A stretch of 64,000 nt of DNA from an uncultured bacterium (GTDB lineage: Bacteria > Patescibacteriota > Saccharimonadia > Saccharimonadales > Saccharimonadaceae), in contig CALMFC010000006.1 of NCBI GenBank assembly GCA_937863415.1, positions 62,001 through 126,000 on the forward strand, in the 5' to 3' direction. The notes under the pieces were generated by a model. That model did not search any database. It worked only from the letters and a program-made list of their open reading frames with translations, and was not told the DNA's origin. Of the stretch, positions 27,951 through 56,461 are shown in pieces; within the stretch, counting starts at the first letter, position 1, and every line of letters begins with the position of its first letter. The position numbers were made by a program, and so were the translations under genes.

Positions 27951-27954
27951 AACT

Positions 27955-28060
27955 AATATCAAGAGCGCGACGAGGGACACTGGACCTATGACTCGCCAGC
28001 AACCTATTCTTTGAACAGAACAAGGTGCTACTTCCAGCCTGAATGATTCGGGAAGATATA
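27955..28060 (+). ncRNA. S-box (SAM-I/SAM-IV clan) riboswitch
   Basis: The leader of metK carries the S-box order of conserved segments: P1 5' strand ATATC followed by AAGAG, then GAGGGAC, a CTGG...CCAG helix containing ATGA, GCAACC, AAGGTGCTA and TTCC, a hairpin CCTGAA/TTCGGG, and GGGAAGATAT, whose GATAT closes P1 (27956-27960 with 28055-28059). These are the SAM-contacting parts of the S-box. It binds S-adenosylmethionine and should switch off metK when SAM is plentiful. Confidence 0.85.
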
Positions 28061-28083
28061 TGTAAATCTTGTAGATAAATATT

Positions 28084-28123: not shown

Positions 28124-29101
28124 ATGTCTGTCACAAAAACTAATCAATATAAAACTGCCGAGAGTGTGTCACCGGGGCATCCTGATAAAATTGCTGATCA
28201 GATTTCTGATGCAATTTTGGATGCACACCTAGTGCAGGATCCGTTTGCTAGAGTCGCAGTTGATGTCGCTGGTGGGCACGGAAAAATATTTGTGACCGGT
28301 GAAGTAACGTCAAAAGCGGTTGGCGTAGATATCAAAGCTATTGTAAGACGCCTGGCGGGTGATATCGAGCTAATCGAGAACATAGCACGCCAAAGTCCCG
28401 AGATAGCTCAGGGGGTCGATACGGGAGGCGCGGGCGACCAAGGAATTATGATTGGATATGCAACCAGTGAAACGCCAGAATTTCTGCCACTTGAAGTTGT
28501 GTTGTCACGTAAATTAAATCAATATTTATATAAAATTTGGCCATTTGATGGGAAAACTCAAATAACGACCAAGGACTCTTTGATTACACACGTAGTAGCA
28601 AGTTTTCAGCACGCCAAAAGCGAGGAACTAAAAAAGGAAGTAAATAAGTGGTTGTTAGATTTTGATTCAACAGGCGACGTAGAATTATTTGTTAACCCAG
28701 CGGGTGATTGGGATATTGGCGGGTTTGATGCTGACGCGGGTCTGACTGGACGTAAATTAGCAGTTGATAACTACGGCCCTGGGGTCCCAGTTGGTGGCGG
28801 TGCATTTAGTGGCAAAGACCCGAGCAAGGTCGATCGCAGTGCCGCGTACATGGCGCGGAAGGTAGCAATCGAATATTTAAAAAAACGCCAAGCAAACGAA
28901 GTATTTGTAAGGCTAGCTTATGCGATTGGTGTAATCGAACCACTAGAGGCAACGGTAATAATTGATGGAATCGGCGAATCTATAACTGGATACGATTTAA
29001 CTCCTAAGGAAATAATATCAAGTCTAAACCTTAGGCGACCCATATACGAAAAGACCGCATCGTATGGTCATTTCGGTCACGAATTTGATTGGGAAAAATA
29101 G
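28124..29101 (+). CDS. metK: S-adenosylmethionine synthetase, short form
   Basis: Makes SAM from methionine and ATP. 325 aa, against the usual 380-400. The ATP/methionine motifs are present: SVSPGHPDKIADQISDAILD, GQGA-type GGAGDQGIMIGYAT, DGKTQIT, GGGAFSGKDPSKVDRSAAYMARK, and the final ASYGHFG. The shortening is mainly in the central domain after DGKTQIT and in loops. Similar short MetK proteins are seen in reduced genomes. It is controlled by the S-box riboswitch directly upstream. Confidence 0.95.
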   Translation: MSVTKTNQYKTAESVSPGHPDKIADQISDAILDAHLVQDPFARVAVDVAGGHGKIFVTGEVTSKAVGVDIKAIVRRLAGDIELIENIARQSPEIAQGVDTGGAGDQGIMIGYATSETPEFLPLEVVLSRKLNQYLYKIWPFDGKTQITTKDSLITHVVASFQHAKSEELKKEVNKWLLDFDSTGDVELFVNPAGDWDIGGFDADAGLTGRKLAVDNYGPGVPVGGGAFSGKDPSKVDRSAAYMARKVAIEYLKKRQANEVFVRLAYAIGVIEPLEATVIIDGIGESITGYDLTPKEIISSLNLRRPIYEKTASYGHFGHEFDWEK

Positions 29102-29773: not shown

Positions 29774-30754
29774 ATGACTGAAAAAACACACGAAACGACT
29801 GACATATTTTTATGGGCTAATAATATTGATGGAGTCAAAAAGGACCTAGATGTTGAGTTCTTTTTGTTTAATAAAAATTACACTCCATATACCACTAAAT
29901 TTGGTAGCGACCTTAGTTCGCAGATTAAACCATTATTTTTGTACGATGTTATTAACTTTGTTAATTTGGGCGCTGGAACTGGGCTTAGTGTGCGAGATTT
30001 TGAATCATCTGACAAAGAAGACAACGTATTGCTTCGAACTGATTTAGAGAAGGTGGGCCGAGCTGAAACGTTAATTCATTTGATCGAACATCAACGTAGT
30101 GACATAGTTGAATTTAGCGAAACCGAACACGAATTCAAGCGGATTAAAGGAATAGTAGCGAAGTTTACCAGTAAGGATGATACCAAGAAACCCTTTTACG
30201 TAGTCAAACAGATTTCGCAGGGTAATGTACTGCAGGGTGCGACCGCCTGGGAGTTTAGAGACGGGAAATTTGGAGCATTTCAGGCGGACGTAGGGCTCAA
30301 GGTCTCTGGCGATAATCAGGTGTTAATTGTCGATAAAGACATCTTTGTATTTAACGAGAGTAAATTTGAACGTTTATTTAATTATGATTACAAAAAGCAG
30401 GCACTGGCTGATCAAAAAGTTGCCCAGATTGAAAAGCAATTTAAACTAAGTTTTCCCGACGGAATGGATTTACAAACACTCGTCAAAGACCGCAGGAAAA
30501 CTGTTAACAAATTACAAAAAATTGAAGTCGGAGATATTACACAGGAACAAGTTGTCGATTACGCCGACCAGATGCAGCTAGAGATTATGACTGATGATGC
30601 TGGTGCAATTATAATTCTGGACGGAAATGACCTAGATACGTTCGTTAATTTAATTAACGAAGATTATATTACTAGTGAGATCACAGGCAGGCGATACGAA
30701 GTAAAAAGTAAACGCCTGTTGGACGATCCCGAGGGCGAACCGCCACGAGGCTAA
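29774..30754 (+). CDS. DUF4868 (KwaB-like) protein
   Basis: 326 aa. The C-terminal two thirds match the DUF4868 style: a beta-rich region FYVVKQISQGNVLQGATAWEFRDGKFGAFQADVGLKVSGDNQVLIVDKDIFVFNESKFERLFNYD with the typical nuclear-like DKDIFVFNxxKFExLFxYD phrase, then helical KKQALADQKVAQIEKQF. DUF4868 is the domain of KwaB, the DNA-binding subunit of the Kiwa anti-phage system. No kwaA-like membrane gene is next to it, so it is either a solo relative or serves another role. AAGGGTAAAA precedes the ATG. The assignment rests on memory of the family pattern. Confidence 0.6.
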   Translation: MTEKTHETTDIFLWANNIDGVKKDLDVEFFLFNKNYTPYTTKFGSDLSSQIKPLFLYDVINFVNLGAGTGLSVRDFESSDKEDNVLLRTDLEKVGRAETLIHLIEHQRSDIVEFSETEHEFKRIKGIVAKFTSKDDTKKPFYVVKQISQGNVLQGATAWEFRDGKFGAFQADVGLKVSGDNQVLIVDKDIFVFNESKFERLFNYDYKKQALADQKVAQIEKQFKLSFPDGMDLQTLVKDRRKTVNKLQKIEVGDITQEQVVDYADQMQLEIMTDDAGAIIILDGNDLDTFVNLINEDYITSEITGRRYEVKSKRLLDDPEGEPPRG

Positions 30755-30771: not shown

Positions 30772-30883
30772 AGCGCCAGGCTAGGTGATTTTCATATCCT
30801 TCTTCGCTCCGGGTCCGCTAAGGGCCCCGGCGCCTTATCGAACTCGGGTTCCAGGGGATACGAAAACCACCTAGTCTAGCGCT
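30772..30883 (-). ncRNA. Branched structured element between DUF4868 and helicase genes
   Basis: A long closing helix pairs 30772-30799 with 30856-30883. Its segments are AGCGC/GCGCT, CTAGGTG/CACCTAG, TTTTC/GAAAA and TATCC/GGATA, separated by single A-C mismatches that all become G-U on the minus strand. Inside, on the minus strand, are a GAAC-CCGA-GTTC hairpin and a GC-rich CGCCGGG...CCCGG hairpin, making a three-way junction. It does not share the linker words of the 11.5/14.7-kb family. Confidence 0.6.
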
Positions 30884-30916: not shown

Positions 30917-30985
30917 CTAATTTAAAAATTGAGACCTGAAAATTAATTTGTGAACTGAAAACTGAAAACTGAAAATTGATGTAGT
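30917..30985. repeat. CTGAAAA/TTGAAAA word repeat
   Basis: Tandem and near-tandem GAAAACT and GAAAATT words before the helicase promoter (for example ACTGAAAACTGAAAACTGAA). Related stretches are at 51222-51357 and 56350-56461. Confidence 0.5.
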
Positions 30986-31000: not shown

Positions 31001-32524
31001 ATGAATCAGGGGATTGCACTAGAGGTAATGCTAGCAGGCGAAAGTGTGCTATTGACCGGTCCGGCAGGGGCCGGCAAGACTTTTGTTTTGAATCAATTTA
31101 TTCGGATTGCCAAAAACGAAGGCAAGCATGTGTCAGTGACCGCTACGACTGGTCTGGCTGCAACACACTTAGGCGGTACAACGATTCACAGCTGGGCGGG
31201 GATTGGTGTATCCGATGAAATAACGGATGGGTTTCTTGATCGAATGGCCAAAGGACGACGCGAAATAATCGAAAAAACCGACGTTTTGATTATTGATGAA
31301 ATCAGTATGATGCACGATTTTCGCCTAGATATGGTTGACGAGGTGTGTCGTTTGGTGCGCCGAAAAGACGAACCATTTGGCGGAATTCAATTAATTATGA
31401 GTGGTGATTTCTTTCAGCTACCACCGATAAATCGTGGTGACAGCAGGGCTGGTGGCTTTGTGGTTAATAGTAATGTTTGGCGTGAGCTAGACCCAGCAGT
31501 TTGTTATCTGTCCGAACAGCACCGCCAAGACGACGAAGAGCTACTTGATATATTGAACTCGCTGAGGGCCGGGGAGCTTCGTCGTGGGCACGCCGAAGCA
31601 TTACTAGCGAGGGTTGAGGTTCAACCTGACGATGGTGAGATTTTAACTGAACTTCACACTGTTAACGTAGATGTCGACAAAATAAACAATGCCATGCTAG
31701 AGCAACTAGACGGTGACGAGCTATTCTATACTCAGACGACAACAGGAAGCGCTAACTATGTAGAGAATCTGCAGCGATCTGTGCTTGCTCCTGCCACTTT
31801 GCGGTTAAAAAAGGGTGCGTTAGTTATGGCTGTCAAAAACAGTTTGGACCGTAAATATGTAAACGGCAGTTTAGGTGTAGTAATTGATTTTGAACCGGCG
31901 ACAGAATATCCAGTTGTTGAATTTAAAAACGGTAAAGTTGTAACAATGACTCCGGATACGTGGGAACTTCGTGATGGTGAGAAAAAGCGAGCTAGTATTA
32001 CTCAAATACCACTGCGTTTAGCCTGGGCAATTACTGTACACAAATCTCAGGGTATGACGCTGGACGCAGCGCGAATTGATTTACGAAAAGCGTTTGTTGA
32101 GGGCATGGGATACGTGGCACTTAGCCGAGTAAAAAATTTGCGCAACTTGTATTTAACAGGGATAAATCGAATGGCTTTGCAGGTAAGTCCAAATGCACAG
32201 GAGATCGATATAAATTTACGCGATAGGGCATCCAGGGACAATAAACGCTTCGCTCATCTGGAGGCTCAAGTCAAAAAGCGGGAATCTAATCCAGTGATTT
32301 CTTCCAAAAAAACCAAATCCAGTAGTTGGAGTGACAAGATTGCTAAGATGCGCGAGACTTATCCAAATGCATATCGTCCATGGGAATCAATGCAGGATTC
32401 AGAATTAAAGGAAAAGTTTCAAAACGGGGTAACTATTAAGCAACTATCTAAGTTGCTGGGTCGTCATGAAAATTCGATCAAAATGCGCTTGCAAAAACAC
32501 TTTGGAGAAGATGTAGTTCAATAG
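31001..32524 (+). CDS. PIF1/RecD-like DNA helicase with C-terminal HTH
   Basis: 507 aa superfamily 1 helicase. Walker A LLTGPAGAGKTFVLNQF (about residues 18-34), motif Ia SVTATTGLAATHLGGTTIHSWAG, Walker B VLIIDEISMMHDFRLDMV, motif III MSGDFFQLPP, and the SF1B C-terminal AWAITVHKSQGMTLDAARIDL...YVALSRVKNLRNLYL. After the helicase core (about residue 430) a linker leads to a final HTH-like segment (ELKEKFQNGVTIKQLSKLLGRHENSIKMRLQKHFG) that may recognise DNA. These helicases unwind forks, R-loops and G-quadruplexes; the host partner is unknown. It is probably on a leaderless mRNA. Confidence 0.93.
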   Translation: MNQGIALEVMLAGESVLLTGPAGAGKTFVLNQFIRIAKNEGKHVSVTATTGLAATHLGGTTIHSWAGIGVSDEITDGFLDRMAKGRREIIEKTDVLIIDEISMMHDFRLDMVDEVCRLVRRKDEPFGGIQLIMSGDFFQLPPINRGDSRAGGFVVNSNVWRELDPAVCYLSEQHRQDDEELLDILNSLRAGELRRGHAEALLARVEVQPDDGEILTELHTVNVDVDKINNAMLEQLDGDELFYTQTTTGSANYVENLQRSVLAPATLRLKKGALVMAVKNSLDRKYVNGSLGVVIDFEPATEYPVVEFKNGKVVTMTPDTWELRDGEKKRASITQIPLRLAWAITVHKSQGMTLDAARIDLRKAFVEGMGYVALSRVKNLRNLYLTGINRMALQVSPNAQEIDINLRDRASRDNKRFAHLEAQVKKRESNPVISSKKTKSSSWSDKIAKMRETYPNAYRPWESMQDSELKEKFQNGVTIKQLSKLLGRHENSIKMRLQKHFGEDVVQ

Positions 32525-51221: not shown

Positions 51222-51357
51222 AATTCACAATTCACAATTCACGAATTCACAATTAATTCACAGTTTTCAGTTCACAAAGCTTTATTTAGTGCAGCTCATT
51301 GAAAATTGGAATCTGAAAACTAATTTGTAAATTGAAAACTGAAACCTGATAATTATA
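51222..51357. repeat. GAAAACTG/CAGTTTTC repeat region between dprA and topA
   Basis: Imperfect inverted repeat: CAGTTTTCAGTTCACAAA against TTTGTAAATTGAAAACTG (plus orientation). A tandem AATTCACAATTCACGAATTCACAATTAATTCAC stretch lies in front of it (given here in words: AATTCAC repeats). Same family of words as at 30.9 and 56.4 kb. Confidence 0.5.
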
Positions 51358-56312: not shown

Positions 56313-56347
56313 TTCTCTAGTATAACAGATACGGGGAGGATATAATT

Positions 56348-56461
56348 GTCAGTTTTCAATTTGCAGTTTACGAAATAAGTACCAGTTTTCAATTCTCAAG
56401 TCCGAAAAATCCTTGAAAACTGTGAATTGAGAATTATTTGAAAATTGGAAACTGAAAATTT
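56348..56461. repeat. CAGTTTTCAATT repeat region upstream of rluB
   Basis: Words CAGTTTTCAATTT, CAGTTTTCAATTCTCAAG and the inverted GAAAACTGTGAATTGAGAATT and GAAAATTGGAAACTGAAAATTT. These can form a hairpin of AGTTTTCAATTCTCAA with its complement. Same repeat words as at 30.9 and 51.2 kb. Confidence 0.5.

Follow-up and report, generated by a model that had tools for sequence, protein, structure and literature searches.

A dispersed, strand-specific palindromic element of Saccharibacteria, located between genes and in frame inside conserved genes

The stretch of DNA analysed here, which we call the window, is 64,000 nucleotides long and carries at 30772-30883 a structured element in the spacer between two plus-strand genes. 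The upstream neighbour (29774-30754) is a KwaB-like gene (DUF4868/PF16162), whose stop lies 18 nt before the start of the element, and the downstream neighbour, a PIF1-family helicase gene (31001-32524), follows after ~120 nt. The KwaB-like gene is present in 18 of the 22 same-genus genomes searched, at about 79-85% identity, and is therefore a core gene of the genus and not a component of a mobile Kiwa defence system. Elsewhere in the window we observe a SAM riboswitch at 27953-28062, directly 5' of the S-adenosylmethionine synthetase gene (28124-29101), and short repeats of the GAACTGAAAACTGAAAACTGAAAA type, some of them inverted, which recur in spacers (30930-30985, 51261-51341 and 56344-56428).

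On the minus strand the element folds, at minimum free energy (MFE), into one unbranched 112-nt hairpin with internal loops (-62.6 kcal/mol, z = -7.1, none of 200 shuffles as good), compared with -57.9 kcal/mol and z = -6.2 for the plus strand. This hairpin is real and far beyond chance, and the minus strand folds better than the plus strand, in keeping with the minus-strand element that an earlier reading of the sequence only had proposed. The same sequence-only reading described a 28-bp closing helix, which we recover at exactly 30772-30799 and 30856-30883. Read 5' to 3' on the minus strand, the element (30883 to 30772) begins with an outer arm whose sequence is specific to this copy (AGCGCTAGACTAGGTGGTTTTCGTATCC, 30856-30883) and ends with the 3' outer arm (GGATATGAAAATCACCTAGCCTGGCGCT, 30772-30799) as its partner, the two being joined by 24 Watson-Crick pairs, three G.U pairs and one A.C apposition. 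The statement that all A-C mismatches of the plus strand turn into G-U pairs on the minus strand holds for three of the four mismatches and fails for the remaining A.C. Between the arms lies the conserved core (CCTGGAACCCGAGTTCGATAAGGCGCCGGGGCCCTTAGCGGACCCGGAGCGAAGAA, 30800-30855, minus strand), which consists of an internal loop, CTGGA / GCGAAG, and an inner hairpin (30809-30848, minus strand) with a GC-rich cap around CGGG. The interior had been drawn as a three-way junction with two hairpins, and this part of the model has to be given up, as the MFE structure, the consensus that RNAalifold derives from seven copies and the covariation in 59 copies all give a single unbranched hairpin with internal loops.

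The sequence-only reading overlooked that the element is repeated within the genome. A search at the DNA level of the genome that the window comes from (847 kb in 14 contigs) finds seven complete copies, of which the window copy scores 101.7 bits with a covariance model, and two fragments broken off at contig ends (G000:C5:1-44 and C13:16108-16143), so that the copy number is a lower bound. The covariance model, which was built from the seven copies of this genome and used to search relatives, detects the family in 19 of 28 same-genus genomes, its own included, and in one of the eight further genera searched within the same family. The carriers have between 1 and about 7 copies, and the model finds none in 24 genomes from other families of the order. 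The matches from a pattern scan of named genomes belong mostly to Candidatus Saccharibacteria / Saccharimonas or to uncultured-bacterium MAGs. The phage and plasmid collections searched contain no similar DNA, and a phage or plasmid origin was rejected on these grounds; the sole viral pattern match (L135) lies in a phage gene region and appears to be fortuitous. For 22 of 59 copies the nearest neighbour is a copy from the same genome, compared with 3.2 by permutation, and these are mostly intergenic copies, while gene-borne copies are often closest to the copy in the same gene of another genome. This pattern of sequence similarity suggests that intergenic amplification is recent and that the gene insertions are older and inherited across species. 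Three head-to-head pairs occur with the members ~25-50 nt apart (L022, L038 and L071), two of them inside single reading frames (a methyltransferase and mnmA).

Across 59 aligned copies the core is kept as CTGsArCCCrAGT...GCGCCGGGGC...ACCCGGmGyGAAGC, with nearly invariant internal-loop residues; the outer arms and the inner helix vary, and the inner helix covaries (helix 3, 92% of cells paired, two-sided changes in 14 of 16 pairs). When the 59 copies are placed on the consensus structure, 88.7% of the cells are paired and 23 of the 25 pairs show two-sided changes, with 326 two-sided cells observed and 105 in shuffled alignments. The covariation score is 0.565 versus 0.199 when shuffled (0 of 500 shuffles as good), and sliding the partner columns by one to three positions as a control brings it to <=0.121. 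The sequence-only reading had asked for a covariance search in related genomes and had named a lack of conservation of the helix pairs as a result that would speak against it; in the search that we ran, the pairs covary.

The outer arms are wholly different between copies, yet they are still paired. For copies at the same gene in different species, the arms fold with their own partner at a mean of -29.8 kcal/mol and with the partner from the other species at -16.3 kcal/mol, compared with -12.8 kcal/mol for unrelated loci (two mnmA copies were skipped in this chimeric-arm comparison). We considered and rejected the idea that the outer arms are pre-existing target palindromes, in the style of terminator- or REP-targeting elements, as the arms within a genome are related and co-diverge. 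Many of the gene-borne copies look shared by descent between species, with the pairing still kept. A purely selfish sequence should decay in such shared copies, and this implies selection on the resident copies, or repeated insertion, or gene conversion.

The core alone sets the strand of the element, with zero ambiguity in 71 copies, so that a count of wobble and mismatched appositions on that strand is not circular. In the outer arms of 64 copies we count 148 G.U versus 29 A.C appositions on the element strand (P = 2 × 10-20), and 53 of 57 informative copies lean towards G.U. The 3:1 signature of a single copy is weak evidence when taken alone, and it is the excess over the 64 copies that makes the case. 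The G.U/A.C counts are 96/18 for intergenic copies, 24/7 for copies on the same strand as the gene that contains them and 28/4 for those on the opposite strand, and this shared bias in genes of both orientations indicates that the constraint follows the element's own strand and not the mRNA. It is compatible with RNA or single-stranded DNA alike and cannot separate the two. A purely mutational origin of the covariation was also considered, in which no selection acts and template switching during replication repairs imperfect palindromes; long hairpins are established substrates for such correction and the arms of orthologous copies do co-diverge. We regard this as very improbable, since the asymmetry of the mismatches goes with the element strand whichever way the site is transcribed, since copies on the positive-skew strand (e.g. 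L011, L012 and L051) are also G.U-rich although replication-driven correction should follow the replication strand, and since the conserved internal-loop residues need selection.

The window also contains a repeat family at 11.5 and 14.7 kb with which the element was said to share no words. We find this to be correct, the latter being a separate repeat family and itself the branched one, and a strand-specific structured element distinct from it is strongly supported. This second, unrelated family occurs in about 14 places in this genome (11505-11655 and 14715-14800 in the window; loci L235-L244) and forms a true three-way junction with two inner hairpins. Its linkers are conserved (GAGACTGTGAAATC, CAGCCGAACGCTT and AAAAAGTGyGCTC) and its long outer arms are copy-specific but paired, a design of conserved core and free arms common to both families. 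One of its copies lies ~45 nt from a copy of the 30772-30883 family (C14:28.75-29.01 kb).

In the relatives, 24 copies lie in frame and without stops inside 22 long conserved open reading frames, a set that is not unbiased, as inclusion was partly by open frame. NCBIfam matches, several of which fall into two parts on either side of the insert, identify the host genes as mnmA (six genomes), dnaX (five), topA (four), alaS (two), a TIGR01177-like methyltransferase (two), and leuS, dus and an rnhB-yraN fusion (once each). Relative to the gene, 13 copies have the same and 11 the opposite orientation, and the inserted peptides predicted from the open frames differ accordingly (HLQPEFDKAPGPL... versus ERLrAGfDKGPGALSnSGCRCSE). 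Uninserted MnmA alleles read ATGHYARV-EGGVLKQAVD, and the inserted ones have ~45 additional residues at that loop. One could suppose that such inserts are never translated, being spliced or bypassed by the ribosome like the byps of mitochondria, and that their in-frame reading is accidental; very stable hairpins inside coding regions would suit this, whereas each of the 24 copies in genes keeps the frame and has no stop (with the inclusion bias just mentioned), and none of the MnmA matches in 35 relatives has an internal stop, where bypass or splicing would tolerate frameshifts and stops. We give this explanation almost no credence. Intergenic copies have 1.69 open frames in six-frame translation compared with 1.42 in shuffles, and in view of this slight excess we do not claim six-frame openness as a special adaptation.

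The loop after ATGHYARV also carries other, unrelated in-frame inserts in several species (L085-L090 and L092); among them, the MnmA of the window's own genome (L089, G000:C14:20028-21128) has the unrelated insert EGGRWKVEGGDTEIANSQIPNSNSHS at this position. From these sequences, the MnmA loop is a hotspot at which repeats of more than one type have inserted. Saccharibacteria have tiny genomes, and the inserts sit in core translation and replication genes; the roughly 70 copies are a warning that MnmA, TopA and DnaX of this group can contain 45-residue loops that stem from a mobile hairpin.

The sequence-only reading took the element for a branched RNA antisense to the DUF4868/KwaB-like transcript. 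This does not agree with an element that is found in both orientations, at intergenic sites unrelated to one another and also, in frame, within many genes, nor with the syntenic kwaB-PIF1 spacer of a relative (G001), which measures ~55 nt and is empty. In another relative (G012) the same spacer holds a different copy of the element in the same orientation, and most other relatives lack the kwaB-PIF1 gene order. The empty sites (the mnmA alleles and the kwaB-PIF1 spacer) are too diverged to define a target-site duplication. The element is not a single antisense RNA, and the window copy probably does not serve the KwaB-like gene in any dedicated way.

A broader form of the RNA interpretation is that the family is a multi-copy functional RNA read from the element strand, such as a small RNA, an mRNA stability element or a terminator-like hairpin, with the copies being RNA genes or 3'-end elements. 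G.U pairs tolerated on one strand, together with strong covariation, are the classic marks of an RNA. The gene-borne copies keep their pairing, and of the 33 intergenic copies that have a called gene on either side, 13 lie between two convergent genes, at the 3' end of both. The remaining intergenic copies are found in all neighbour orientations, however, and 24 copies are within reading frames, where 11 run antisense to the gene. Moreover, nine of the 28 same-genus genomes have no detected copy, Rfam covariance models at relaxed thresholds return chance matches only, below the gathering score, and the orientation of the copies tracks GC skew and not coding direction. On this evidence a functional RNA is an unlikely explanation of the family.

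The orientation data point towards replication. In flanks of 10-19 kb, the GC skew taken in element orientation is negative for 47 of 59 copies (P = 5 × 10-6, the copies being not fully independent of each other), and the net coding direction around the copies is unbiased (34 of 59). The 16S rRNA gene of this genome is on the G-rich strand, which together with the negative skew indicates that the element strand tends to carry the sequence of the nascent lagging strand. Within the window itself (1-64000), the GC skew stays positive though the genes at 44-60 kb are on the minus strand, and the AT skew flips with gene direction. A correlation with GC skew and not with coding direction, and a structure kept whatever the direction of transcription, would also be expected of a DNA hairpin at which a host protein acts on one of the strands in replication, repair or chromosome handling. 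We think such a site improbable, as the copy number is low and patchy, with some near-complete relatives having none, as it is difficult to see how an immobile site would come to be inserted in frame into genes, and as the favoured strand is opposite to the lagging-strand template that would be exposed as single-stranded DNA. As for mobilisers, no Y1 transposase is present in this genome (G000) or in eight other carriers, and no RVT_1 reverse transcriptase in this genome; both were rejected as candidates, being absent from this genome.

Taken together, the sequence comparisons make it probable that the copy at 30772-30883 is an intergenic member of a new family of mobile elements in Saccharibacteria, palindromic, non-autonomous and ~100-150 bp long, with selection acting on the folded single strand. 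The moving unit would be the folded element strand as a single strand, either single-stranded DNA or RNA, recognised by its structure and its conserved core loops and mobilised in trans by a putative enzyme. Capture at replication forks would bring the element strand preferentially to the C-rich strand, where the nascent lagging strand would take it up, and the gene insertions that we see would be the ones that leave the frame intact and give the protein a surface loop of ~45 residues that it can tolerate. A more specific version, in which an RNA or single-stranded DNA intermediate is taken into the nascent lagging strand at forks, along an undescribed route that is transposase-free or cryptic, and selection afterwards keeps the hairpin in place, even in essential genes and in either orientation, is offered as a tentative idea that we hold to be rather doubtful. 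If true, this lagging-strand-entry route would establish a new class of mobile elements, defined by structure and with sequence-free arms, by which protein loops of Saccharibacteria are edited.

Several known systems share features with the mobile element family proposed here. REP/RAYT and IS200/IS605 elements have folded single-strand DNA as their substrate and a replication-linked orientation. The Saccharibacteria carriers (this genome and eight others) differ from both in having no Y1 transposase, and the element lacks the short REP hairpin with the GTAG tag. Its strand bias is opposite to what would generally be expected of the active strand of IS200/IS605 and of reverse-splicing introns, and would fit single-strand capture into lagging-strand synthesis. 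Integron attC sites, in which structure is conserved over sequence and which are strand-specific, are similar in these two respects; unlike them, the Saccharibacteria element has no cassette arrays, has its conserved residues in the middle and not at the ends, and inserts inside genes. By eye, attC-like R boxes (GTTRRRY) are seen in one subgroup of copies and are not general.

Bacterial MITEs (ERIC, Correia/NEMIS and RUP) are non-autonomous repeats of ~100-150 bp with stable stem-loop transcripts (PMC2229807), and the element resembles them in size, in its stem-loop and in being non-autonomous. In MITEs the terminal inverted repeats are conserved, and there are usually TA target duplications; the terminal arms of the Saccharibacteria element are paired and are its least conserved part in sequence, and no target duplication could be made out at its diverged empty sites.

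The closest likeness is to the Rickettsia palindromic elements (RPE), which measure 105-150 bp, form a stem-loop and occur as intergenic copies as well as in frame within conserved genes (PMC2229807, PMC10969869). Like RPE and the protein-coding palindromes of Wolbachia, the Saccharibacteria element combines this size with a long stem-loop, intergenic and in-frame copies, multiple host genes and no identified mobiliser (PMC2229807, PMC10969869). Being a near-palindrome of 100-150 bp with a long stem-loop, dispersed in intergenic copies and in frame inside conserved genes, it appears from this comparison to be a good match to RPE as a kind, in an unrelated phylum. No RPE model is among the NCBIfam 20.0 matches listed for ten host proteins (up to 25 matches for some of them), in a release that may or may not hold such models. 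The Saccharibacteria element has freely varying, covarying arms, one-strand wobble, both gene orientations and a link to GC skew, traits that RPE may or may not share. A search of the literature outside subscription journals found no report of such elements in Saccharibacteria, and the sequence, the host phylum and the strand-specific covarying arms are new. In-frame protein-coding palindromes have been described from Rickettsia and Wolbachia, and with an unrelated family in Saccharibacteria the phenomenon is seen to extend beyond a single lineage; its roughly 70 copies and their strand-specific covariation provide a direct statistical handle on how such elements move, a question that goes back to 2000.
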